Shown in pieces: positions 31,147 through 55,588 of a stretch of 64,000 nucleotides of DNA. Made by a program: the position numbers and the translations under genes. A model generated the notes under the pieces. The model was not told the origin of the DNA. It was given only the letters and a program-made list of their open reading frames with translations, and searched no databases. Every line of letters begins with the position of its first letter. Positions within the stretch are counted from its first letter, which is position 1. Origin of the DNA: Psychromonas sp. MME1 (GTDB lineage Bacteria > Pseudomonadota > Gammaproteobacteria > Enterobacterales > Psychromonadaceae); contig NZ_CP160906.1 in NCBI RefSeq assembly GCF_041080865.1, positions 372,001 through 436,000 on the forward strand. Direction: 5' to 3'.

Positions 31147-31734
31147 TTACTTGTTTTGCTTCAATTGACTCGTGCCATAGTCATTTGTACTTGCTGTGTT
31201 TTTTTCTTTTGTTTTTACTTTTGCTTGATACGATAATCGATAAATTGCTTCGGCTTTAGTTTCTTCAAATGATGGATCTCCTCTTTTTATCATGTAGTAA
31301 CAATTTTTTGGGGTATATAAATGACCGCCATCTGTTATGTCATGCCACATACTGCTTATTGTTTTAAGTAGTTTGTGGGGGTATTGTATTTTTGAACCAT
31401 CAAGCATTAATGCCATATGATAATGTTGCTTCGATGATTTATATTGTTCTCGACACCATGTGTAACCTAGTCTTTTTATGTTGTAATAGCGTCTTAAGTA
31501 AAAGCGCAGTTTACTCAATAATATTTTTAGACCGTTGTTATCAGACGAAAAAGTGGCAACTCGTAAATCAAATACGACAATAAATGTTCGACTATGCTTA
31601 GTGATAGTATTTTCCATTTGCTCAATAATCTTCCTCATTTGATGTGTAAAAATAGGCTTGTTCTTACCGCTATTTACTCTAAACACTTTGTTTTTGGTTC
31701 TGTATATGGGGTTTTCACTTTTATATTTTGACAT
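31147..31734 (-). CDS. inovirus Gp2 / YagK-YfjJ-type replication protein
   Basis: A 195-residue protein with the pattern of the Gp2/YagK_YfjJ family: MRKIIEQMENTITKHSRTFI, FLRRYY-type segment, LGYTWCREQYKSSKQHYHMA. The HYH motif is HUH-like, and YRLSYQAKVKTKEK closes the domain. These proteins occur in P4-like satellites and filamentous phage relatives and are presumed replication initiators. It follows alpA in the same direction. Length is normal and the gene looks intact. Confidence 0.8.
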   Translation of the reverse strand: MSKYKSENPIYRTKNKVFRVNSGKNKPIFTHQMRKIIEQMENTITKHSRTFIVVFDLRVATFSSDNNGLKILLSKLRFYLRRYYNIKRLGYTWCREQYKSSKQHYHMALMLDGSKIQYPHKLLKTISSMWHDITDGGHLYTPKNCYYMIKRGDPSFEETKAEAIYRLSYQAKVKTKEKNTASTNDYGTSQLKQNK

Positions 31735-32544: not shown

Positions 32545-33294
32545 AGTTTTGTTTCCTTATACTGCGGTTCGCTGCAGTTCGGGAGTGACTATAAATATTT
32601 ATTTTTGGTGTAATAGAACGGTTTACACCACCAAAATGTGACGTGGTTAGTATTATTTGATTTTAATCTGCATATATAGTTAGGTTAGCTGAAAATACTT
32701 TGTTGATATACCTGATTGATGGTTGTTGATCTCTTTCTTATGCTTAGCAACATCAGCCTTTTCACGCAGTAATACGAGGCAGCTGAATTCTGTGGAAACT
32801 TTTTAGTCGGTAGGCTGGAACTTAGGTAAGTTGGTTATATGCAGCAATTGCCTAACGGAACATTTACTCGTTTTTCTAATGATATTTTGATGGAGCTAAT
32901 GTTTCATTTTGAGTAACCAGTTATAGTGATAACTTTAATTTTCGTTAGTCAGTGCACTTTAGGATACTTCGCGATTTAGCTTCCTGAGGCGTTTAGGGGC
33001 ACAGAGCGAGATAGATTTAATAGTCAATTAGTTAGATATCTTTCTATAAATAGGCTTAGTGAAATCTGGGAAGTCTAACCTGAATACTCAGCTTCCTACG
33101 TTGGTGTGGGCTTTAAAGGCTATCAAGTCAACGAAATCCTCTTAATTACATGTGTTTGTAAGTGATCTACAAAGTGTTACTATGCTCATTTAAAGTCTTA
33201 TAATAAGCCGTTTTGAAATAGGGCTAAAAGCTATACCTAACTCCTCTGATAATACCGATAGAGCAGGAATATACCGTTGGAAACTATTTGAAAT
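32545..33294. other. 750-base non-coding stretch before the biosynthesis cluster
   Basis: No gene found. It contains the first copy of the 20-bp repeat (32996-33015) and presumably the promoter of the seven-gene cluster. AT content is high in the last 150 bases, and no operator was recognised. The ribosome site of the first cluster gene is weak. Confidence 0.6.
32996..33015 (+). repeat. 20-bp direct repeat, left copy
   Basis: GGGGCACAGAGCGAGATAGA, identical to 40520-40539. The two copies are about 7.5 kb apart and bracket the seven-gene cluster with nothing else between them and the cluster except non-coding DNA. Confidence 0.85.
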
Positions 33295-34290
33295 ATGCGT
33301 ACTTTTAAAATTTTAGGCAGTGGAGTCTATCTACCTCCTTTACAAGTTTCGTCCGAAGAACTCGATAAAAAACATGGTTTAAAAAAGGGCACCATTGTTA
33401 AAAGAACAGGGGTTTCCTATCGACACTTTGCACAGATAGAAACCGCTTCTGTTATGGCTGTTGAGGCACTGAATCAAGCCTCAATTGATGCCAATATAAG
33501 CCTTAGTGATATTGACTGCTTAATTGCTGCCTCAGGTACTATGGAGCGAGCTATTCCCTGTAATGCTGCTAATATTCTTGCCGAGTTAAATTTACTTGAA
33601 CCGATTACTGGTTTTGATGTAAATGCCACCTGCCTTAGTGGCTTGTTAGCTATGGACTTAGCATCATCTTTATTGCTCACTAAACAATACAAATGCATTG
33701 CTGTTGTTTCGAGTGACTTGGCTTCGCCAGCTCTTAATTGGGAAGATATTGAATGTGCTGGTTTATTTGGTGACGGTGCCGCTGCATTGATTTTGACCAG
33801 TCCCTCACTAGAATCTGAAACCAATCAAACAATTCTTGCATCTCAATTTAAAACATACCCCGTTGGTCTTAATCTTTGCCAGGTTCGAGGAGGCGGTAGT
33901 TTAAATCATCCTAGCAAAATTAATGAAGATTACACTCCTTACTGTTATTTTGAAATGCAGGGTAAGGAGCTTTACCGTACTGTTGTTAGCGTTATAGGGC
34001 CTTTTTTGGATGAGTTGTTTGCCAAAACAGAGCTGACGTTGGCGGATATTGATTGGCTTATTCCTCATCAGGCTAGTGGTCTAGCAATGAAACATCTTTT
34101 CAAAAAGTTGGGAATTAAGCCAGAAAAAGTGATAAACCTGCTCCACGATCGAGGCAATCAAATTTCCGTCTCTCTTCCATCTGGTTTACATGAGTTGCGA
34201 CAATCAGGTAAAGCTAAATTTGGAGATAAAGTACTAATGCTTGGAACCTCTGCGGGTTTAAGCATTGGCGGAGTTATTCTAACGCTATGA
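33295..34290 (+). CDS. beta-ketoacyl-ACP synthase III-like condensing enzyme
   Basis: A 331-residue thiolase-fold enzyme. The catalytic triad is visible: Cys113 (NATCLSG), His258 (WLIPHQAS) and Asn288 (DRGNQIS). The family joins an acyl-CoA or acyl group to malonyl-ACP or to a second acyl chain. It differs from housekeeping FabH in context: it is the first gene of a cluster with an adenylate-forming enzyme, a reductase/epimerase and two glycosyltransferases. This suggests a dedicated lipid or polyketide-like product. Its stop overlaps the next start (ATGA). No ACP gene is nearby. Confidence 0.9.
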   Translation: MRTFKILGSGVYLPPLQVSSEELDKKHGLKKGTIVKRTGVSYRHFAQIETASVMAVEALNQASIDANISLSDIDCLIAASGTMERAIPCNAANILAELNLLEPITGFDVNATCLSGLLAMDLASSLLLTKQYKCIAVVSSDLASPALNWEDIECAGLFGDGAAALILTSPSLESETNQTILASQFKTYPVGLNLCQVRGGGSLNHPSKINEDYTPYCYFEMQGKELYRTVVSVIGPFLDELFAKTELTLADIDWLIPHQASGLAMKHLFKKLGIKPEKVINLLHDRGNQISVSLPSGLHELRQSGKAKFGDKVLMLGTSAGLSIGGVILTL

Positions 34291-35120
34291 GGTTAGAGTT
34301 ATTAAAAGTAGGTCACTGCTTTCATCCAGAAAGGATGGTGTTAAAAGGGGCGAGTTGGAAACCAACGGAGTTTCCTTCGATTGTCAGCTTAATAAAGCAT
34401 CCGAGTAAGGGCTATATTATATTTGATACAGGATATGCCGACCACTTTACGACTGCTACTCAGCCGTTTCCAGAGCGTTTTTATCGCTGGATAACGCCGA
34501 TGTGTCTTCCTGATTCAGAGCGCCTTGTGAATCAGTTAGCAAAGAAGAATATTGCAGCACAAGATATTAAGTATATTTATATATCGCACTTTCATGCAGA
34601 CCATATTGCTGGTTTGAAAGACTTTCCTAACGCTCGTTTTATATGTTCTAAATTGGCTTTACAAACCATAATGCAGGGATCTCGTTTGGGTAATCTATTG
34701 CAAGGTAGCTTGTTGAGTTTATTACCTGATGACTTTTCTAAACGTACTATTTTTATCGAAGAGTGTAAAACCATAAAAATATCAGGTAAGTTATCGCCAT
34801 TTCAATATGGCTATGATGTATTTAATGACGGCTCTCTAATAGCAATAGCTTTACCTGGGCATGCCCATGGACATTATGGTTTGATGGTCTATCGCAATAA
34901 ACAACCCGTTTTTTTGATTGGTGATGCATGCTGGTCCATTGAATCGATCAAAGAGCAGAGATATCCTCACCCGATCAGTCAGATAATTCTTAGTAATACG
35001 AGAGAGTACTACGACACACTAGACAAGCTGAGTCGGTTACATAGTCAAAATTCAGAGTTAACGCTTTTACCTTCACATTGCACCCAAAGTTATAAGGCCT
35101 TTTATGCTGGGGAAAGTTAA
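34287..35120 (+). CDS. MBL-fold metallo-hydrolase
   Basis: A 277-residue protein with the metallo-beta-lactamase motif HFHADH at residues 101-106, a later His in LPGHAHGHYG and Asp in IGDACW: a complete two-metal site. The closest style is the lactonase/thioesterase branch (long N-terminal segment, IIFDTGYADHF). In this cluster it may release or hydrolyse a thioester or lactone intermediate. It overlaps the KAS III gene by 4 bases and the next gene by 17. Confidence 0.88.
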   Translation: MRLELLKVGHCFHPERMVLKGASWKPTEFPSIVSLIKHPSKGYIIFDTGYADHFTTATQPFPERFYRWITPMCLPDSERLVNQLAKKNIAAQDIKYIYISHFHADHIAGLKDFPNARFICSKLALQTIMQGSRLGNLLQGSLLSLLPDDFSKRTIFIEECKTIKISGKLSPFQYGYDVFNDGSLIAIALPGHAHGHYGLMVYRNKQPVFLIGDACWSIESIKEQRYPHPISQIILSNTREYYDTLDKLSRLHSQNSELTLLPSHCTQSYKAFYAGES

Positions 35121-36404
35121 GCAGGCCTGCTACTTTATTTATGGCTATATGATTGCTATCAAGTGTAGGACTGCCTCGCAAGAACGAACGGCTAATCGAC
35201 AGCAGCAACGCTTTCAAAAATTAATTAATCATGTTGCAGATAAATCTCATTTTTACAGTAGATTTAAAAATCAAACCTTAAGTAAATTTCCAATAATCGA
35301 TAAACCGTTATTTTTAGCTCATTTTGATGAAATTAATACTGTAGGGTTAGATCTCAAACAGTGCGAAGAGCACGGACTTAAAGCTGAAAGTGACCGTGAT
35401 TTTAACGCTGTTCTTAAGGGGGTTTCAGTTGGTCTTTCATCTGGTACTAGTAATCAGAGAGGTGTTTTTCTCGTCTCGCCTTGTGAACAAGCTTTGTGGG
35501 CAGGGTATATTATTGCTAAAAACATCCCATTTAGTTTTCGCAAAAAGAAGGTTGCATTATTTCTAAGGGCTAACAGTAACCTCTATGAGTCGACGAACGG
35601 ACTATTTATGGACTTTCGTTTTTTTGATCTTACCAAATCGTTTGATGATTTAATCGCAGAGCTTGAAGCGTATAACCCTCATATTTTGATGCCCCAGCTC
35701 ATGTGCTTGATATTATTGCCAAACACCAGAGCACTATTAAACCGGATAAAATAATATCTGTTGCCGAAGTATTGGAAAATTCGATGAGAGACAGAGTAGA
35801 AGATCGTTTTCCTTGTAAATTGCACGAGATATATCAAGCAACTGAGGGCTATATTGCCTCTAGTTGCTCTCATGGTAACTTACATATTAATGAAGATATA
35901 TTGATTGTCGAAAAGGAATGGATAGATAAAGAGAGTGGTCGCTTTGCTCCCATTATCACTGACTTAAATCGACGCACTTTACCTATTATTCGATACCGTT
36001 TAAATGATATTTTGATCGAAGAAAAAGCGTCTTGTCCTTGTGGTTCGCATTTTACTCGATTACAAAAAATTGAGGGGCGAGAGGATGATATGTTGTGGTT
36101 ACCTCATTCGACTAACGGGTCACTAGTTGCTATTTTTCCTGATTTGATACGCCGAGCAATGTATATATGTCAAACCCAGGTATCTGACTACCGTATCGCA
36201 CAACACGGTGGCGTTATTTCTTTTACTTATAAAAGTGATGACGCAGCTAAGGCTGAGCAAGATATTACGGCTACATTGACAGAATTATTTACCGGCTTGA
36301 ATGTTGATAAGCCTGAAATAAACTTTAACGTGGGCATTAAACAAGATCTTATGAAGAAGCAGCGCCGGATTGCCTGTTATCAAAAACCAAGTTTTGTGGA
36401 CTAA
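35104..36404 (+). pseudogene. adenylate-forming enzyme (F390 synthetase / phenylacetate-CoA ligase-like) with one frameshift
   Basis: Two frames, 35104 to about 35695 and from there to 36404, together encode one protein of about 430 residues. The first contains SVGLSSGTSNQRGVFLVSP, the phosphate-binding loop of adenylate-forming enzymes. The second continues with AHVLDIIAKHQ, HEIYQATEGYIASSC and RRTLPIIRYRLNDI. One base is missing near the CCCC at 35692-35695. The shift is either a real mutation or a sequencing error. Intact relatives activate carboxylic acids as acyl-adenylates, and here the substrate would be the fatty product of the upstream enzymes. Confidence 0.82.
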
Positions 36405-36408
36405 AACA

Positions 36409-37359
36409 ATGATGAAAATTTTAATTACGGGTGCCTCTGGTTTTGTCGGTGGTAGCTTTTTGAAACGCTTCTCTGATCAAGAAGGCATTGAGATTCACGG
36501 GATATCTAGACGCCCTATGCCTTGGGATAATTATTCACAGGTGGATTTATCTAAAGGTATTGATATCGACTTTAAACCCGATGTTGTGATTCATGCTGCA
36601 GCACATGTATCTCCATGGGGAAGTAAGAAAACTTTTTTTGAAGGCAATATTTTGTCTACTGAAAATGTTATTGATTTTTGTGAAAAAAATGGCCATCCCA
36701 AACTTATTTATATATCATCCAGTTCGGTTTTTTATCACGATAAACCGCAGTTTGATATTACCGAAAATAGTCCAATTGGCCCTGATTTTATTAACGATTA
36801 TGCGGCGACTAAATATGCTGGTGAACAGTGTATTCAAAAGTATTCTGGAAAAAAAGTTATATTAAGGCCTCGGGCAATCTTTGGTCCTGGTGATGAAGTA
36901 TTATTTCCTCGTATTCTAAAAGCAGCTGAAAAAGGAAAATTGCCACTATTTACGACACAAGAGCCTGTGATAGGTGATTTAATTTATATTGATTGCTTAA
37001 CAGACTACATGTTGTTTGCTGCGCAGTCTGACTCTATTCAGGGAGACTACAATCTCACCAATGATAAACCGATAGAAATACAAGCCGTTTTGCTTTCGGT
37101 ACTTTCTCGTCTTGGATATCCTCAACCGAAGAAAAAAGTCAGTATGAAAACTGCAATGAGGTTGGCTGGGATTGTTGAATGGTGCTATCGCGCTTTCAAC
37201 ATTAAAAATGAGCCGCCAATCACTCGTTACGGAGTGAGTGTTTTGGCTAATTCAAAAACATTTGATGTTACTAAAATGCTAACTGATTTCGGTCCACCGT
37301 CAATGACCATTGAGCAAGGCATTGAAAACTTTATTCAGTGGGAATTAGAAAATGTTTAA
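36409..37359 (+). CDS. NAD(P)-dependent epimerase/reductase (extended SDR, 3-beta-HSD-like)
   Basis: Start at ATG 36409 or 36412 (MKILITGASGFVGGSFLKRF); about 316 residues. The Rossmann motif GASGFVGG, the Ser in ISSSSVFY and the YxxxK pair (DYAATKYAGEQ) are present. PRAIFGPGDEVLFPRIL is typical of the 3-beta-HSD/OleD-like branch, which reduces beta-keto lipids. This agrees with a reduction step on the ketoacyl product. The gene follows the ligase after 4 bases and overlaps the glycosyltransferase by 8. Confidence 0.9.
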   Translation: MMKILITGASGFVGGSFLKRFSDQEGIEIHGISRRPMPWDNYSQVDLSKGIDIDFKPDVVIHAAAHVSPWGSKKTFFEGNILSTENVIDFCEKNGHPKLIYISSSSVFYHDKPQFDITENSPIGPDFINDYAATKYAGEQCIQKYSGKKVILRPRAIFGPGDEVLFPRILKAAEKGKLPLFTTQEPVIGDLIYIDCLTDYMLFAAQSDSIQGDYNLTNDKPIEIQAVLLSVLSRLGYPQPKKKVSMKTAMRLAGIVEWCYRAFNIKNEPPITRYGVSVLANSKTFDVTKMLTDFGPPSMTIEQGIENFIQWELENV

Positions 37360-38473
37360 TATTTTGATCGCTTGTCTTTATCTATCACTACAACTGTTTA
37401 AAAAGCTTAGCGCACGATCTTATTGTAAAACAGTCATTTTGCCCCAAAAGCCTGTTTTATTAGAGAACGTCGCCATTTTTCAACCCATACTTAGTGGTGA
37501 TGCTAGCTTGTCATGGACACTAGAAAGCAATCTTCTTATTCTGAAAGAGGCCTGCTTTTACTGGTTGGTTGATGACGAAGATCCCGTAGGGCATGAAATA
37601 GTTGATGAGCTTATTAAGCGACATCATGATAAAAATATCGTTAAATTATCTTTCCCCGAAGCACCTGAAAGTATTAATCCCAAGCTGTTTAAGTTAAATG
37701 CAGTGTTATCGCAGTGTCAGCAAGACTATTGCATAGTGCTTGATGACGATACCACTTTACCTGAGCCATCATTACAGATGATGTTAGCCGACTTAGCACA
37801 CTGTGAATTAGTCACTGGCTTGCCACAATACCGTGAACAAGGTGATTTCTATTCACGCTTACTTGCGGCTTTTGTTAATAATAATGCTTCATTTACCTAT
37901 TTATCTTTGCTTCCTTATATGAAACCAATAACGATTAATGGCATGTGTTATGGATTTAAACGAGAACAGTTAAATACAATAGGTGGCTTTGAACCCATTC
38001 TTGGTTGTTTGACGGATGATCTTGCGATGGCAGAACATGTTTTATCCCATGGTGGTACGATACGTCAAACTACGTTTATTCAGCTAATAGCAACCTCGGT
38101 TGATGACGCAAAGCATTATTTTAGGCAAATGCACCGTTGGTATGTGTTTGCTAATATTTTATTCTTTAAACAGAACAATAAAACTAAAGCCATTATTTTC
38201 TCACTGCACGGGTTACCGTCCTTATTATTGTTAAGCTTATGGTTTACGTTATTTTTTAACTTTTCAGTTATTAGTGCTTCGACACTACTCATAACGCTGA
38301 TAGTACGACAGTGGATTATTGCCGGGAGTATGAAAGGTCTGTTGTTATCTGTTTTATCAGAAAGTTTACAAACACTTCATTTAGTACATGCATTTATGAG
38401 TAAAAAAATACGCTGGAGAAATCGTTTTTATCGTGTGGATTCCAATAGCCAATTTACCAGTATTAAAAAGTAA
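37352..38473 (+). CDS. membrane glycosyltransferase, ceramide glucosyltransferase-like (GT21)
   Basis: A 373-residue protein with an N-terminal anchor (residues 2-17), DDD at 131-133 (YCIVLDDDTTLP), TDD at 221-223 and QMHRW at 259-263, the D, D, D, Q-x-x-R-W signature of GT21/GT2 lipid glycosyltransferases. Two or three membrane helices follow residue 270. It would transfer a sugar from a nucleotide sugar to a lipid at the inner membrane. Overlaps neighbours by 8 bases and by one base (TAATG). Confidence 0.88.
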   Translation: MFNILIACLYLSLQLFKKLSARSYCKTVILPQKPVLLENVAIFQPILSGDASLSWTLESNLLILKEACFYWLVDDEDPVGHEIVDELIKRHHDKNIVKLSFPEAPESINPKLFKLNAVLSQCQQDYCIVLDDDTTLPEPSLQMMLADLAHCELVTGLPQYREQGDFYSRLLAAFVNNNASFTYLSLLPYMKPITINGMCYGFKREQLNTIGGFEPILGCLTDDLAMAEHVLSHGGTIRQTTFIQLIATSVDDAKHYFRQMHRWYVFANILFFKQNNKTKAIIFSLHGLPSLLLLSLWFTLFFNFSVISASTLLITLIVRQWIIAGSMKGLLLSVLSESLQTLHLVHAFMSKKIRWRNRFYRVDSNSQFTSIKK

Positions 38474-39060
38474 TGATTTTGATGAAAGCTATTTTTATAA
38501 CAGGGCAAAGCAACCGGCGTTGCTGCCAGTTAAGCCCCAAACAGAAAAAGATTGCTGATTTTCTTGAGGAAGAAGGTGTTAGTGTTGCGCCTTTTAATTT
38601 TCCGTATGATAGTCAAATGAATGTTTATCATGAAACTAACTTATTGAATGCTAGTTTATCAAATACTTTACAGTACTTTTTATCGAGAAAGCCTCATTTT
38701 GAAAAACAATACCGAGCACAGGTTATTAAACAATTTGAGCAATATGGTTACTGTATTGTAATGGCTGGAAGTTGTGGGCTTGAGTTGTTAAATAATTTAC
38801 ATTTACCAGTTAAACTACTTAAAAATATGCATGTTATTGCTTATGGACCTGTAGCTAGAACTCTACCTAAAACACAAGTTACAATGATTCAAGGGAGAAA
38901 TGACTGGCTTTCAAAATTATTCTTCAAAGAGGTAGACTATCTCGTTGACTGTGGTCATATGGACTATCTCGAGAGTACAGAGATATTAAACGTTTTGCAG
39001 CAAGTCATCTGTTCTATAAAGAAAAATCAAATGAATAATATACATGAAAAGTGCACGTGA
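38473..39060 (+). CDS. 195-residue protein, possible alpha/beta-hydrolase-like enzyme
   Basis: Start ATG 38473 or 38482 (MKAIFITGQSNRRCCQLSPK). Not a recognised family. Features that suggest an alpha/beta-hydrolase fold: CIVMAGSCGLELL near residues 93-105 (a nucleophile-elbow-like A-G-S-C-G), and IQGRNDWLSK with CGHMDYL near the end, where the acid and His would lie. It might be a lipase, thioesterase or acyltransferase of the pathway. It overlaps both neighbouring genes, so it belongs to the operon. Confidence 0.6.
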   Translation: MILMKAIFITGQSNRRCCQLSPKQKKIADFLEEEGVSVAPFNFPYDSQMNVYHETNLLNASLSNTLQYFLSRKPHFEKQYRAQVIKQFEQYGYCIVMAGSCGLELLNNLHLPVKLLKNMHVIAYGPVARTLPKTQVTMIQGRNDWLSKLFFKEVDYLVDCGHMDYLESTEILNVLQQVICSIKKNQMNNIHEKCT

Positions 39061-40369
39061 AAAAAATTAGTATTGATCTCTTAGCCCCCCCTTTCAAAGG
39101 TCACTTGCACCCCATTTTGTCGATGGGCAAGCAACTGTTAGCGCATGGCTTTGACGTTACCGTATTATCATCGGAAACGGCCAAAGTTGATATTGAAGCG
39201 GCAGGTCTTAGACCATTATTGCTTACATCCATTGACGATAAAATCTTGATTGAGTGTGTTAACCCTGCCTATGCGGTACGAAGTTCACCAACAAAATTGA
39301 TTGCTCAATTTAAGCAAGTCATAAGTTTTTTCAGACTATTGAAAACAGAGCTAGAAACTATTTACGCTGAACGTTCATGTGACTTAATGATTGCCGATTT
39401 CACATTACCTGTTGCGGGTATTGTCGCGGATCAAAATGACATTGTTTGGTGGACAAGTATGCCTTCGCCCTGTGTTATTGAATCTAGTACAGGAATCCGA
39501 GTTATTTAGGTGGCTGGAAAGAAAGTGACAGTCTGCCGTTAAAGGCTAGAGATTGGTTAGGCCGTAAATTGGTGAGGCTATTTAAACGAAGTGCTTTTTA
39601 TTTATGCAAAAAAACTATTCGTTCTTTAGGTCTAGATAATATTTACCGAGAAGATGGCACAGAAGTTATCTATTCAAAACATTGTATTTTATGCCTTGGC
39701 TATCAAGATTTTGAGTTTTCAAAAAACTGGCCAAAGGCGGCTAAATTTGTTGGTCCTATGCTTTATACTCCTGAAATCACAGATGAACCTGCACATGAAG
39801 CCCCTATGTTTCAGGAAAATAAACGCTATGTGCTAGTAACTCTTGGAACGCACCTCGATTGGTGTAAAAAAGGTATATATCAGGAAGTTGAAAAACTATC
39901 GATACAATTTCCCGATGTGGTATTTCATTTTACCGATGGGAATGCCAATAACGATAGTTATGCCAAAAGTCATAATCAATGCTTTAGGTTTTCTTACATC
40001 AATTATGAATGTTACTTACCAAAATACGATTTTGTGATCCATCATGGTGGCGCTGGCATTTTGTATTATTGTCTTCAGTTCGAGAAGCCCTGCATCGTCA
40101 TTCCTCAAGACTATGATCAATTCGACCATGCAGCTCGTTTAGAAGCCTTAAACCTTTCTATCTGGGTTAAAAATGTTAAAGAGATATCAATAGCACTTCA
40201 GACCTTACTAATGGGTAGCTGTGTTGCTCAAAGTATAAAAAGTTTTAATGAGCGGTACGCTAACAAGAACCATAATTTAGCACTATTAGGCTTGGTTGAA
40301 TCGGAGATAAAGAGACGTGATATTGAAAATTCTGGAGAACAATTATATCCAGTTAACACTTTCTTCTAA
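39057..40369 (+). pseudogene. UDP-glycosyltransferase-like enzyme (UGT/MGT family) with one frameshift
   Basis: Starting at GTG 39057, coupled through GTGA to the upstream stop, the protein begins MKKISIDLLAPPFKGHLHPI. The frame breaks near 39497, where one C appears missing, and continues (SYLGGWKESDSLPLKARDW...) to 40369. The C-terminal half has IHHGGAGILYYCLQFEKPCI and PQDYDQFDHAARLE, the sugar-donor signature of the UGT/MGT family. The total length of about 437 residues is normal. It would add a second sugar or glycosylate the finished lipid. Confidence 0.82.
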
Positions 40370-40780
40370 TAACTCTAACCTCCTTATATATAGTATTTTT
40401 AATGACAATTGGTTTGCATTTATATAGTTGATAATTGTTGTGGATTGGTAATTCTGGTCGCTTTTTATAGCTTCTAACTCGCTTGGGGTCGTTTGCAATT
40501 TAGTTTTCTATCTCGGTTTGGGGCACAGAGCGAGATAGAACTTTTGCTCTATTATCGGTTGAGATACCCAATTTATCCTGATTTTCTCTCAACAAAATAG
40601 TAATAGCAAAAGGCAAGATCTGACCCCAGAAATGATGCTCCTGTGAAGTACTTTCCAAATTTTGATATTTAACCTAACTGTGACACCGTATAATTTGATG
40701 TGAAATAACGCTTTCAAGTGGTGTTTTCATCACAAAAAAATCACTTTCTTACAAATAATTGATTTTGAATAATGGTACTC
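40370..40780. other. non-coding region after the biosynthesis cluster
   Basis: No gene. It holds the right copy of the 20-bp repeat (40520-40539), which forms a CTATCTCG/CGAGATAG hairpin with sequence just before it, and GGCAAGATCTGACCCCAGA (40612-40630), a relative of the motif at 30001-30020. TGACCCCAGA-type sequences are often found around REP-associated (RAYT) transposase genes; none is present here. Confidence 0.55.
40520..40539 (+). repeat. 20-bp direct repeat, right copy
   Basis: Identical to 32996-33015. Here CTATCTCG just upstream pairs with CGAGATAG at the end of the repeat, forming an 8-bp stem. It may be the transcription end of the cluster as well as a recombination scar. Confidence 0.85.
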
Positions 40781-41525
40781 ATGCTTAATAGGGTATGCTG
40801 TTTCTCATTTGCTTCAGAGGATTTTTCATCGTTTATGGATATCACCTTACAGTCCCAATTAACAAATGTAGATGAAATAAAAAGCATACTAAAAGAGGTG
40901 CTAGTTTCATTTAAGTTAGCAGATGATTGAGATGTCAACACTCTACTAGTATATCTCCCATGTACTGAAGATGGGAAAAGTGACTATACAGATTTTTTTG
41001 AATGTGTAAAAAATAGTATTCTCCAAAATTTTGTATTCTCTTGTCTGAAGTTGAAAAAAACTAGGAATAAAAAGTGTAACGGCTTCGGAAGATCTTTTTC
41101 AAAAAGCACTTAGAAAAATTAGCAGACATACAGCCAAAGGAGAATTGGGAGAACTGATATTGTTTACCTTACTTGACGTATATCTATTAGCTCCTAAGTT
41201 ATTGAGTAAAGTATCAATGAAAACCAACCCTAGAATGCCTGTATACGGAGCGGATGCTGTTCATGGTCAGATTGTTGATGGAGAGTTGAGGGGGTATTTG
41301 GGAGAGTCGAAGCTTTATAAAAATTTTAAATCAGCAGCCTCAGAAGCAACTAAATCAATTAAGAGTGCTAAAGATAAATATGAGGATGAATTTGACTTGC
41401 TTGACAGTCATATGGACTTTCCGAATTTAGATGAAAAATTAGAAAGTCAGATTTTACAGCTTTTGAATCCATATACGGCTACACAAGCCATTGATAAAAT
41501 TCACTATGACGTTATCTTTTGCTAG
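40781..41525 (+). pseudogene. decayed hamA-like gene (DUF1837; Hachiman defence nuclease), broken and truncated
   Basis: The frame from ATG 40781 (MLNRVCCFSFASEDFSSFMD) is interrupted by TGA at 40928-40930, reads on to about 41070, shifts frame, then continues as ALRKISRHTAKGELGELILF to 41525. The core matches DUF1837/HamA: GELGELILF, LLSKVSMKTNPRMPVYGADA and the nuclease-like GESKLYK (ExK). It stops before the C-terminal part of HamA, and no hamB helicase follows. At least one nonsense change and one frameshift plus loss of the partner indicate a dead remnant. Confidence 0.7.
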
Positions 41526-41682
41526 TTCACTATTAAATAACCATTTTTAATGGTTACATCATAGAGACTATTTGTTCCTGTACCTGATGCACTTAAAAAT
41601 AGATAGCCTATTTTTTAGTTAAAATTAAATAATAAATAAATCTTATTTAACTTAAATTGAATATGCCTCTGTGGGTATGAAA

Positions 41683-41704
41683 TTTGGCGTAAATTTGGCG
41701 TAAA
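41683..41704 (+). repeat. tandem TTTGGCGTAAA repeats near the attachment site
   Basis: TTTGGCGTAAA occurs twice without a gap (41683-41693, 41694-41704), 90 bases before the tRNA-Leu fragment. The GGCGTAAA core with 11-base step also occurs inverted at 32233-32251. This position and phasing suit integrase arm sites. Confidence 0.65.
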
Positions 41705-41793
41705 CCTGTCTAAGTTGTATTAAACCGAAAAGAACCTAAGTCATTTGAAACAATATGTTAAGTATCCTATACTACTACGGTAACCTGTAATAT

Positions 41794-41851
41794 CAGGATT
41801 CAAAATCCGTTTTCGAAAGAAGTGCCGGTTCAAGTCCGGCCTCGGGCACCA
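41794..41851 (+). pseudogene. 3' fragment of tRNA-Leu(CAA): probable island attachment site
   Basis: The sequence from CAGGATTCAAAATCCG onward through the variable arm, the T-arm (GGTTCAAGTCC) to CTCGGGCACCA is the 3' part of a tRNA-Leu with CAA anticodon. The 5' half (acceptor strand, D-arm) is absent: upstream DNA is unrelated. Integrases that use tRNA 3' ends leave such a copy at the far end of their island. The full tRNA-Leu(CAA) would lie outside the window to the left. Confidence 0.8.
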
Positions 41852-41974
41852 TATTCAAACAATAAAGCCTCAACTTACGTTGGGGCTTTATTGTTTCTAG
41901 GTCAATCAAATAGCCATTATTTCTTAGGTATAAATTACTATTTAAATTAATTGTTTACTGACAATAGCTGCGCT

Positions 41975-42027
41975 ATGATTTACGACGCCAGGTATCAAAA
42001 AAATTGATACTTGGCGTCGTAAATCAT
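41975..42027. promoter_or_regulatory. long palindrome upstream of the LysR-type gene
   Basis: ATGATTTACGACGCCAGGTA (41975 on) and its complement ending at 42027 form 24-base arms with a single G-T type mismatch and a loop of five A residues. There is no T-run after it, so it is not a plain terminator. It sits 15 bases before the regulator start and could be an operator or a structured leader. Confidence 0.6.
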
Positions 42028-42042
42028 TCAGGAATCGTGTTC

Positions 42043-42954
42043 ATGAAGTATTCATTAAAACAATTAGCGGTGTTTGATGCCGTTGCTATGCATGAAAGTG
42101 TTAGTGCAGCTGCGCGGCAGTTATCAATGACTCAGTCTGCTGTTAGTATGTCCCTTTCTCAATTAGAGCACGTACTTGATAGACCATTATTTATTAGGCA
42201 AGGGAACCGACTTGCTTTAAGTCATTGGGGGCGTTGGTTAAGGCCAAAGGCAAAACATTTATTACAAGAGGCAATGCAAATTGAACTCGGGTTACACGAC
42301 CAACAGATTATTAGTGGTAATTTAACAATTTGTTCTAGTCAAACACCTGCCAAACATATATTACCTAAATTAATTAGTAAAATTGATGAAGATTTTCCTG
42401 AACTGCATTTAGATTTAATGGTGGAGAATACTGATTCTGTTATTCAATGCCTATTAAATTATGAATGTGATTTGGGAATGGTTGAGGGGCGTATTGACCA
42501 TACAGGTCTTCATCAGCAAAAATTGCTTGATGACCACTTAGTTATCTTTTGCAACCCTAATCATCCTTATGCCAAATTAAATAAAGTGAATAGTGCGCAA
42601 TTAGAGCAAGCGAAATGGGTGATGCGTGAGATAGGGGCGGGTACTCGACGTATTTTTGATGGCGCTATCCACGGTATAATTGAACATATTGATGTATGTA
42701 AAATTTATGAAAGTGTTCAAGTATTAAAAGCGTTAGTGGAAAATGGTGTGTATTTAAGTTGCTTACCTTATCTAGATGTTGCACAGGAGGTTGAAAAGGG
42801 GGATTTAGTTATATTGTCAACACCTCAATTGAATATGGATAGAAGTATTTCATTTATATGGCGAAAAAATACGGGTGAAAATCCATTAAGGGATTGTGTT
42901 CTAAGAGAAGCACAACGTTTAGTGTCAAATTCTAAAAAAGCAAAAACAAGGTAA
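42043..42954 (+). CDS. LysR-family transcription regulator (YeiE/CysB-like branch)
   Basis: Start at ATG 42043 (MKYSLKQLAVFDAVAMHESV) with AGGA nine bases upstream; 303 residues. The N-terminal helix-turn-helix (SVSAAARQLSMTQSAVSMSL) is typical LysR, and the C-terminal effector domain starts near residue 90 (LTICSSQTPAKHILPKLISK). The overall style is like YeiE, which controls anion or sulfite-related genes. The gene is convergent with the FNT-CBS gene. The long palindrome just upstream may be its own operator. Confidence 0.85.
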   Translation: MKYSLKQLAVFDAVAMHESVSAAARQLSMTQSAVSMSLSQLEHVLDRPLFIRQGNRLALSHWGRWLRPKAKHLLQEAMQIELGLHDQQIISGNLTICSSQTPAKHILPKLISKIDEDFPELHLDLMVENTDSVIQCLLNYECDLGMVEGRIDHTGLHQQKLLDDHLVIFCNPNHPYAKLNKVNSAQLEQAKWVMREIGAGTRRIFDGAIHGIIEHIDVCKIYESVQVLKALVENGVYLSCLPYLDVAQEVEKGDLVILSTPQLNMDRSISFIWRKNTGENPLRDCVLREAQRLVSNSKKAKTR

Positions 42955-53076: not shown

Positions 53077-53101
53077 GCCCGCGATTATTTGCGGGTTTTT
53101 T
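53077..53101 (+). terminator. attenuator-like terminator before thrA
   Basis: AGCCCGC, loop GATTATTT, GCGGG and then TTTTTT, ending 24 bases before the thrA start. A terminator in this place fits transcription attenuation of the threonine operon. The antiterminator and a Thr-rich leader peptide are not obvious. Confidence 0.75.
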
Positions 53102-53124
53102 GTGTTACAGCAGGGATTGTTCAA

Positions 53125-55588
53125 ATGCGTGTACTTAAATTTGGCGGCACATCATTAGCAAATGCCGAACGTTTTAATCAAGTTGCAGATATTGTTATTA
53201 ATAACCATCAGCAGTCACAAATCGCCTTAGTTTTATCAGCACCAGCGGGGGTGACTAATAATTTAGTTGCCGTTGTCGATAAAACCAGTAAAGGGCTCTC
53301 TGCAGAAGCTCATTTAACAGATATTCAACGTATTTTTGCCGATTTAATTAACGGTTTAAAAAGTACTTATGCAGAGTTTGCCGATGATTTGCTAAAAACT
53401 ATTTTTGAGCAAGAGCTTTTACATTTAAGTGAATTACTTGAAGGTGTTCGTTTATTGTCTCAATGCCCTGAAAATATTGAAGCAAAAATATTAAGTAAAG
53501 GTGAGCTGTTAAGTGTTGCCTGTATGAAACAATTGTTGATAGCTAAAGGGCATCCGGTTGAGGTGATTAAGCCTCAAGAAAAATTGATGTCCTATAAAGG
53601 TGGTTATTTAGAAGCTCAAATTGATATAGATGCATCACGAGCATTGTTTGCTAAAGATGCCATTGTTCAAGGCGCTATTTATCTTATGCCTGGTTTTACG
53701 GCTGGTAATGAGCAAGGGGAAACGCTGGTGTTGGGGCGTAATGGCTCTGATTATTCAGCTGCTGTTTTAGCAGCCTGTTTAAGGGCTGAGTGTTGTGAGA
53801 TATGGACCGATGTTGATGGGGTATATAGTTGTGACCCAAGGTTAGTAAAAGATGCAAAATTATTACGCTCACTGAGTTACGCTGAGGCGATGGAGCTATC
53901 TTACTTTGGTGCAAAAGTATTGCATCCCAAAACCATTGCGCCTATTGCACAACATGCTATCCCTTGTTTAATAAAAAACACCCACAATCCTCAAGCAGAT
54001 GGGACGCTGATAGGTCAAGTACAAGGAGATGATTCGTTGCAAGTCAAAGGTATTTCAGATTTGAAAGACTTAACCATGTTAAGTATTTCAGGTCCCGGCA
54101 TGAAAGGTATTGTTGGCATGGCTGGGCGTATATTCACGACTATATCACGTGCCAGGTGTGTCAATTATTTTGATTACACAATCATCATCTGAATATAGTT
54201 TAAGTTTCTGTATTGGTGCCGCTGATACACCTAAAGCATTGCGGGTTTTAAGCGAAGAATTTGCTTTAGAATTTAAAAACAATCTATTAGAGCCTATTGA
54301 GTTGGTGGAAAATCAAGCAATTATCTCCTTGGTTGGGGATGGGATGAAAAAAGCGAATGGGGTTGCTGCTCGTTTCTTGACTGCGCTATCCGAGGCATCT
54401 ATTAATATCAGTGCTATTGCACAGGGCTCTTCGGAACGTTCAATTTCAGTGGTTATTGGTGAAGATAAAGCCAAAGATGCGGTTATCGCTTGCCATCAAT
54501 CATTTTTTGGCAGTGTGCAATATATTGATATGTTTTTAATTGGCTGCGGTGGTGTTGGTGGGGCGCTTGTCGATCAAGTTTATCGTCAACAGGATCGTTT
54601 AGCCGAGCGTAATATTCAAATCAGGGTTTGTGGTATTGCTAATAGTCGTGTGATGTTAATGAATGAACAAGGCATTGATTTAGCCAATTGGCGAGAGCTA
54701 CTAAAAAATGGCAAACAAGCGCTTTCTTTATCCAATATGCAGTCTTTGGTGCAAGAGTCACATATTATTAATCCGGTTATTGTTGATTGTACAAGTAATG
54801 ATGCCATTGCAGCCCGTTACGTTGACTTTTTAGGTGCTGGATTTCATGTGGTAACTGCTAATAAAAAAGCGAATACCAGCAGCATGGAATATTACAAACA
54901 GTTACGTTTATCTGCGCTGATGAAACGCCGTAAATTTTTATATGATACGAATGTTGGTGCAGGCTTACCCGTTATTGAAAATATGCAAAACCTCTTTAAC
55001 GCAGGTGATCAATTGATTAAGTTTAATGGTATTCTGTCTGGTTCTTTATCTTTCATTTTTGGTAAGTTAGATGAAGGACTTAGCTTTTCAGAAGTGACTA
55101 AAGAAGCGCGTAAAATGGGCTTTACCGAGCCAGATCCGCGTGATGATTTAAGTGGGATGGACGTGGCGCGTAAACTGCTTATTTTAGCGCGTGAAGCAGG
55201 CATGGAACTTTCGCTTGAGGATGTTGAAATCGAACAAGCTTTACCACCTGGTTTTGATGATAGCGGTAGCGTTGAAGAGTTCATCGAACGCCTGAGCGAT
55301 GCCGATGCTTACTTTAGTGAATTACAGAAAAAAGCCAATGAAAATGGTCAAGTATTACGATATATAGGCAGTATCGAAAACGGTAAATGCGTGTGTAGTA
55401 TCAAAGCAGTGGGGGCCGATGATCCTCTTAATAAAGTGAAAGATGGTGAGAATGCACTCGCCTTTTACAGTCAATATTATCAACCAATTCCTTTGGTTTT
55501 ACGTGGTTATGGTGCCGGTACGGAAGTAACCGCTGCGGGTGTATTTGCCGACGTATTACGTACACTGAATTGGAAACAGGAGTTTTAA
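53125..55588 (+). pseudogene. thrA: bifunctional aspartokinase I / homoserine dehydrogenase I, one frameshift
   Basis: Start ATG 53125 ([20 protein letters not shown]). The kinase ([22 protein letters not shown]), the ACT domains and homoserine dehydrogenase ([46 protein letters not shown]) are all present, about 820 residues. The frame breaks near 54155: the upstream frame ends soon after [11 protein letters not shown], the downstream frame resumes with [14 protein letters not shown]. One extra base in GTGTG explains this. Loss would cause threonine auxotrophy, so an assembly error is plausible. Confidence 0.93.

Follow-up and report, generated by a model that had tools for sequence, protein, structure and literature searches.

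What product would a marine bacterium make from seven tightly coupled genes that pair a condensing enzyme with two glycosyltransferases? The question is raised by an operon at positions 33295-40369, plus strand, of a 64,000-nt stretch of DNA from Psychromonas sp. MME1 (hereafter the window; C1:372001-436000 of a 3.59-Mb single-contig genome). Its genes, here called A to G, encode a 3-ketoacyl synthase III (KASIII; A), a metallo-beta-lactamase-fold hydrolase (MBL; B), an adenylate-forming ligase (C), a short-chain dehydrogenase/reductase (SDR; D), a glycosyltransferase (GT) of the GT21 type (E), a small alpha/beta hydrolase (F) and a second, GT1-like glycosyltransferase (G). Judged by sequence, all of these enzymes belong to known superfamilies and the operon is of a small acyl-derived biosynthetic kind. 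Our analysis indicates that the first four genes form a free-standing and widespread core, which had gone unnoticed in the preliminary description of the locus. We give an even chance to the proposal that the operon joins this exchangeable acyl core (A-B-C-D) to a glycosyl module (E-F-G) and makes a glycosylated acyl lipid. An acyl-derived glycosylated product is the best reading of the operon, as the preliminary description had it.

The four-gene core in other bacteria

Core loci were fetched by means of the ligase from named genomes, the best 80 of 343 giving 78 distinct loci; since selection went by the ligase and Legionella supplied 16 of the loci, the counts are not independent. The ligase is accompanied by D in 76, by B in 73 and by A in 72 of the 78 loci, with all three present in 69, and D-B-C are consecutive, with gaps below 200 nt, in 72. 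The hosts are Legionella, Shewanella, Alphaproteobacteria, Bacilli, Lachnospiraceae, cyanobacteria and Sericytochromatia, and the core was also detected in Fusobacterium, gut clostridia, Rhodobacterales plasmids and Escherichia coli. The ligase is nevertheless a rare gene. A ligase over the family cut-off was present in 5/60 genomes searched as relatives (the window's own genome included) and in 1/369 genomes of the class; the window's own ligase falls under the cut-off because it is split. Seventeen plasmid records bear the ligase, ten of which were inspected: eight of these have A, D, B and C in a compact group (as A-D-B-C, A-P-D-B-C or D-B-C-A), and the genes are scattered in Leaf58. Co-occurrence of the gene families, which the preliminary description had proposed to look for, was therefore found in several phyla, and a chance neighborhood was rejected, these families being found side by side repeatedly in different genomes.

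Neighboring genes of the core

The genes that stand beside the core differ among its hosts. An ATP-grasp gene was found in 46/78 loci and a GNAT-type gene in 32/78; when four of the GNAT-type proteins were scanned with Pfam, one gave a FemAB match under the cut-off and three gave nothing. Rieske oxygenases stand beside the core in six of the 78 loci, and in Psychromonas sp. RZ5 the core is accompanied by Rieske and DUF3419 genes, the latter being the BtaA-type family. Within the window's genus, four of 23 other genomes carry a ligase over the cut-off, two with ATP-grasp/GNAT and two with Rieske/DUF3419 neighbors, and the genus holds three versions of the core neighborhood. On two Rhodobacterales plasmids (L207:3534-9251 and L208:3512-9239), the core adjoins a divergent TetR regulator and a divergent sulfotransferase. 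The E. coli block (L205:6209-13090 and L215:4001-10882) consists of the core together with PAP2, FA_hydroxylase and FA_desaturase genes, and 671 of 5,426 complete genomes contain 80% or more of it by length. On the single chromosome inspected, the block is flanked by narI and two tyrosine tRNAs, and on the single plasmid inspected it follows narI. To our knowledge, no function is assigned to it. The PAP2, hydroxylase and desaturase set appears to be the best pointer to a lipid product, and most of the other neighbor modules look like ways of putting a polar group on a hydroxyl or carboxyl.

In Legionella steelei (L032:10738-14891), the core is followed by genes for an outer-membrane efflux protein, a HlyD-type protein and an MFS transporter. 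An ORF of 511 aa, the same length as this MFS gene, stands downstream in 8/16 Legionella loci. These Legionella genes may supply the export function that has no counterpart in the window's operon.

The E-F-G module and its likely exchange

A two-row profile of F matched one of 20 genomes, four of 388 genomes of a cyanobacterial class (one of them the same genome) and two of 394 genomes of the window's taxonomic order (one of them its own). E, F and G stand side by side in all five foreign genomes so matched. Genome G696, of the cyanobacterial class, carries A-B-C-D-E-F-G in the same gene order as the window, and G748, also of that class, has all seven families rearranged as D-B-C-E-F-G-A. D-B-C with divergent E-F-G was observed in G425, with no A on the stretch read, and A, E-F-G and D stand ahead of a contig end in G705. 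In G1119, from the window's taxonomic order, NCBIfam recognizes, within a 579-aa ORF (L116:10397-12133), the first ~70 residues of a KASIII, a central part of D and the glycosyltransferase of E; the ORF is followed by F and G and is what deletions have left of an operon of this kind. Fusobacterium vincentii shows the arrangement E-F-D-B-C-A, and in 7/7 D-B-C-A loci, from Lachnospiraceae, Ruminococcus and Clostridiales metagenome-assembled genomes, a GT1-like gene directly precedes D. A scan of genome contigs with F alone confirmed no relative, and F had no match in plasmids.

Phylogenetic analysis placed the window's A with Shewanella (support 89/84, not starred) and the KASIII of G748 with MxnB/CorB (96/94); a single clade of KASIIIs that accompany E-F-G was rejected (p-AU 9e-56; the test was chosen once the tree was known). 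In the tree of D, the window's protein joins that of G696 (100/99). Exchange of whole modules is likely from these comparisons, but less certain for single genes: the KASIII tree speaks for it and the D tree does not.

Organization of the operon

Neighboring genes of the operon overlap by 1-17 nt or stand 4 nt apart (Table 1). The seven families, the single strand and the tight spacing agree with the seven coupled genes of the preliminary description, whereas C and G each consist of two ORFs in different frames. The family assignments are backed by Pfam and NCBIfam, with several scores under the curated cut-offs. Inspection by eye of the 37 ORFs of at least 40 aa in 33000-42000 revealed neither the DSL motif of an acyl carrier protein nor a further operon gene beyond the seven families, and regulators come no closer than a LysR gene at 42004-42954; the cluster is, as described earlier, without an acyl carrier protein, an exporter or a regulator in this interval. 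The GC content of the operon is 0.378 in comparison to 0.399 over 400 kb of the genome and is not distinctive, 13% of 7-kb windows being lower. Scans for promoters and terminators did not rise above shuffled sequence (28 observed vs 31.3 shuffled, and 7 vs 6.4).

Table 1. Genes of the operon and its flanking repeat, with window coordinates
Feature	Position	Strand	Basis or remark
A: KASIII, condensing enzyme of the core (331 aa)	33295..34290	+	Pfam ACP_syn_III and C-terminal domain, triad
B: MBL-fold hydrolase (277 aa)	34287..35120	+	Lactamase_B 56.8 bits, metal-ligand motifs
C: adenylate-forming, F390-synthetase-related ligase, two frames (35104-35754, 35703-36404)	35104..36404	+	TIGR02304
D: 3-beta-HSD/OleD-like SDR (316 aa, from ATG at 36409)	36409..37359	+	Epimerase/3Beta_HSD
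E: GT21-type membrane glycosyltransferase (373 aa)	37352..38473	+	Glyco_transf_21 108.8 bits
F: predicted minimal alpha/beta hydrolase (195 aa), Ser100-Asp144-His162	38473..39060	+	AlphaFold model, conservation
G: GT1/MGT-like glycosyltransferase, two frames (39051-39509, 39569-40369)	39051..40369	+	TIGR01426, Glyco_tran_28_C
Left copy of 72-nt imperfect direct repeat (71%) flanking the operon	32959..33030	+	No strong hairpin
Right copy of 72-nt flanking repeat	40483..40554	+	Strong hairpin, z -5.1

Enzyme families encoded by the operon

The protein A matches both KASIII Pfam domains and has its triad, C113/H258/N288, in place, confirming the complete Cys-His-Asn triad noted before. Its best NCBIfam model is PRK07204 (NF005541; 344 bits, under the cut-off of 402). 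Identification of A as FabH was rejected, as it reaches 192 bits against a cut-off of 292 with the FabH model TIGR00747, for which another KASIII of the genome scores 462. Among PDB chains, A scored 187 bits with 4v2p, which we take to be MxnB, 183 with CorB, 148 with FabH and 65 with PqsD-type chains, and the entries that we presume to be OleA reach at most 58. Identity is 36% to MxnB and CorB, 32% to Aquifex FabH and 23% to the genome's own OleA. The comparison with OleA and FabH that had been suggested for this enzyme thus placed it nearest to MxnB/CorB and then FabH, with OleA far lower. According to one published study, OleA E117 and PpyS E105 are deprotonating bases, MxnB and CorB have Val at the corresponding position, and the latter two enzymes form a pyrone ring from two polyketide chains (PMC4578411). 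At the position of this catalytic Glu, A has Ile87; Ile or Leu occupies it in 32/32 core KASIIIs examined, and the genome's own OleA has Glu. The same genome encodes a separate OleA-like KASIII at C1:1423274 and an OleD at C1:1426793 (614 bits, over the cut-off of 580). A search of phages with A gave 16 distant matches (23-31% identity), 15 of them in unannotated records.

For B, the Lactamase_B match and the metal-ligand motifs (HFHADH at 101, of the form HxHxDH; GHAHGH at 191; GDA at 212; PSH at 262) bear out an MBL-fold hydrolase, and the protein shares 54% identity with the MBL encoded in a Shewanella core. Assignment as an acyl-homoserine lactone lactonase (AttM/AiiA) was rejected, since B scores 86 bits with the AttM model against a cut-off of 390; the AttM/AiiA-type lactonases and pyridoxolactonase are far under their cut-offs, and the PDB relatives are similar. 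The two halves of C match TIGR02304 positions 16-196 (170 bits) and 209-425 (217 bits), in comparison to a model cut-off of 251.9, and the homologue in G696 scores 314 bits. C sits on the PaaK/F390 side of the adenylate-forming enzymes, and no OleC-type model was among its NCBIfam matches. The family named in the preliminary description is probable, with the gene in two reading frames. The SDR motifs of D (TGASGFVGG at 7, YAATK at 131) and its Epimerase and 3Beta_HSD matches agree with a 3-beta-HSD-like reductase, as proposed. D is 50% identical to the D protein of G696.

E exceeds the gathering score of GT21 (PF13506; 108.8 against 21.7 bits) and contains the motifs DDEDP, LDDDT, LTDD and QMHRW (QxxRW), with hydrophobic stretches near 280 and 300, so that the GT21-like assignment also held. 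The GT21 type is known for lipid acceptors. E shares family and D/QxxRW motifs with HpnI and the GT21 ceramide glucosyltransferases; unlike these systems, E scores 66 bits with HpnI against a cut-off of 310, and no hopanoid or ceramide gene is present in the operon. F had no Pfam or NCBIfam match. Its AlphaFold model, built from six rows (pLDDT 81, pTM 0.81), gave best Foldseek matches to small lipases and other alpha/beta hydrolases, at E 1.6e-5 and weaker and a moderate TM of about 0.5. The motif AGSCG lies at 98, and S100, D144 and H162 are invariant in 6/6 rows and are also present in the Fusobacterium row. Structure prediction of this 195-residue protein thus yielded the fold that had been thought possible, and by this model F is a minimal alpha/beta hydrolase with a Ser-Asp-His triad and predicted activity. 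The pieces of G match the MGT model TIGR01426, under its cut-off, and Glyco_tran_28_C, in keeping with a UGT-like enzyme of the GT1/MGT family, with the ORF split between two frames.

Proposed pathway and alternative readings

The families and their motifs, the coupling of the genes, the conservation of the core and of the E-F-G neighborhood, and the change of neighboring modules are direct observations, and the scheme that follows is the most likely route. A would take a fatty-acyl thioester supplied by primary metabolism and condense it with a malonyl unit, giving a beta-ketoacyl thioester, B would hydrolyze this thioester to the beta-keto acid, and D would reduce the 3-keto group to a hydroxyl. 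The carboxylate would be re-activated by C through adenylation, as acyl-AMP or acyl-CoA, for transfer. E, at the membrane, and G would place one or two sugars onto the hydroxyl, and F may perform an ester- or acyl-transfer step. The core itself would make a hydroxy-acyl lipid, which other bacteria would complete with different polar groups. The rhamnolipid genes rhlABC bring together an acyltransferase of the alpha/beta-hydrolase fold, a GT1 and a GT2-type transferase acting on beta-hydroxy acids, and E-F-G comprise the same three classes, a likeness to be read as analogy only; no Rhl-named model was among the Pfam and NCBIfam matches, and Rhl sequences were not compared directly.

Several observations weigh against this scheme. 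The substrates, the order of the steps, the attachment to the hydroxyl, the sugars and the lipid nature of the product are what we infer. A need not use a malonyl unit because its nearest solved relatives, MxnB and CorB, make pyrones from two chains. PaaK-like ligases often activate aromatic acids. The substrate of D may differ, because the branch that unites the D proteins of the window and G696 stands apart from the other core D proteins. The trees also leave room for less exchange: a KASIII clade with the same-genus KASIIIs was not rejected (p 0.161), nor was a single E-F-G clade in the D tree (p 0.149). A profile search of the 78 ligase-fetched loci found E in two and F and G in one, so the window's exact version is uncommon, and no G was recognized on the Fusobacterium stretch despite E and F. 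The ligase also occurs apart from the core; on pMPPla107 only an ATP-grasp-like gene is nearby, with no A, B or D on the fetched stretch, and the stretches fetched for two loci, of Planktothrix and Oscillatoriales, show the ligase but none of the other three core genes. Finally, the reading frames of C and G are interrupted in the assembled sequence.

Some of these points would fit a different chemistry. The substrate of C would then be an aromatic or short acid, which A would join, once activated, to malonyl-CoA or a second beta-keto chain; B would serve as a thioesterase of the PqsE type, D would again be the reductase, and the sugars would yield a small glycoside instead of a glycolipid. 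We regard this route, resembling that to the Pseudomonas quinolone signal (PQS) or to a pyrone, as unlikely, although several features favor it: the pqsABCDE genes likewise combine a ligase, a KASIII-like enzyme and an MBL-fold thioesterase, C lies on the PaaK/F390 side, and both the PDB comparison of A, including its lack of the Glu of OleA and PpyS, and the place of the G748 KASIII point to the pyrone-forming enzymes. The likeness of A to MxnB and CorB is a sequence kinship alone, seen in identity, triad and missing Glu; these enzymes build the pyrone ring from two polyketide chains (PMC4578411), and there is no polyketide synthase in the operon. The operon further differs from pqsABCDE in its SDR and glycosyltransferases, no PqsBC pair was seen, and PqsD-type chains are distant from A, at 65 bits or less. 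The fatty-acid desaturase and hydroxylase that adjoin the E. coli core, and the GT21 type of E with its lipid acceptors, also argue against a small glycoside and are in line with a glycosylated acyl lipid.

The preliminary description had drawn a parallel to OleABCD, the long-chain olefin pathway, and its logic of roles (condense, hydrolyze, activate, reduce) holds. KASIII, adenylate-forming enzyme, OleD-like SDR and alpha/beta hydrolase are alike as roles; D resembles OleD at a low score, and F has the fold of OleB. The enzymes themselves do not follow the parallel, and membership in OleABCD was rejected on the basis of Ile87 in A and the 145-163 bits of D with OleD models, whose cut-off is 580. 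Moreover, the ligase is of the TIGR02304/PaaK-F390 kind, the operon adds an MBL and glycosyltransferases, the OleA base is absent from every core KASIII examined, and the genome has its OleA/OleD locus elsewhere. An Ole-like route is therefore very improbable, and the acyl core with a glycosyl module remains the reading we prefer.

Frame breaks in C and G

Homologues of C elsewhere are single ORFs, 82/87 of which measure 420-490 aa. The halves of G align to successive parts of one 429-aa homologue, and G homologues beside F elsewhere are single ORFs of 402-444 aa. Frames were compared between 40 stretches of 20 kb from the same-genus genome G011 and the window plus 20 stretches of this genome. 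Of the testable genes, 3/32 had a changed frame in this genome in comparison to 1/32 when the test was reversed, and the sample is small. Among the three is valS (C1:352388-355218), which lies in two pieces and is the genome's only copy. The sole aspartokinase-homoserine dehydrogenase of the ThrA type, located in the window, is likewise split across two frames (53089-54192 and 54110-55588). Since valS is an essential gene present only in this split copy, assembly indels are the simplest cause, and the breaks in C and G are probably assembly indels like those of valS and ThrA, as far as this small sample permits. Decay of the operon to a non-functional state in this strain would agree with two frame breaks within 7 kb and with the deletion relic in G1119. 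We consider it quite unlikely, given the split valS and ThrA-type genes, which suggest that the assembly carries indels, the difference in frame changes between the two directions of the test, and the full frames and motifs of the other five operon genes.

Surroundings of the operon

The 19-nt core of the flanking repeat has exactly two copies in the genome, those beside the operon, and C1:995511 holds a further copy with one mismatch. The repeat could delimit an acquired unit, or it may be a small dispersed element. Genes of a Mu-like prophage lie within positions 1-28109 of the window (Mu transposase, MuB, Mu portal, tape measure protein and a CI-like S24 repressor). Between the prophage repressor and the operon, at 31147-31734, lies a gene for a YagK/YfjJ-family protein, which possibly stems from another integrated element.

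Possible significance for bacterial lipids

No description of the four-gene core or of the seven-gene operon was found among the titles and abstract openings listed by our searches of open-access literature, and it is in this sense that we call them undescribed. A broader proposal, which we advance tentatively and with less confidence than that for the operon itself, is that the KASIII-SDR-MBL-ligase core defines an undescribed, phylum-crossing lipid class with a member in about one eighth of complete E. coli genomes. The core would make the tail, and a swappable module would set the head or the finish of the chain, whether sugar, sulfate, homoserine-like, aminoacyl, or desaturating and hydroxylating. 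Because the core block occurs in only part of the complete E. coli genomes, its product could be sought there by comparing the lipids of strains with and without the core. If the proposal is true, one small gene set would explain unknown lipids or lipid-like metabolites of E. coli, Legionella, gut clostridia, bacilli, cyanobacteria and marine bacteria, and the exchange of neighboring genes would tell which part of the molecule varies. It would also provide a function for TIGR02304, a family named by resemblance only.

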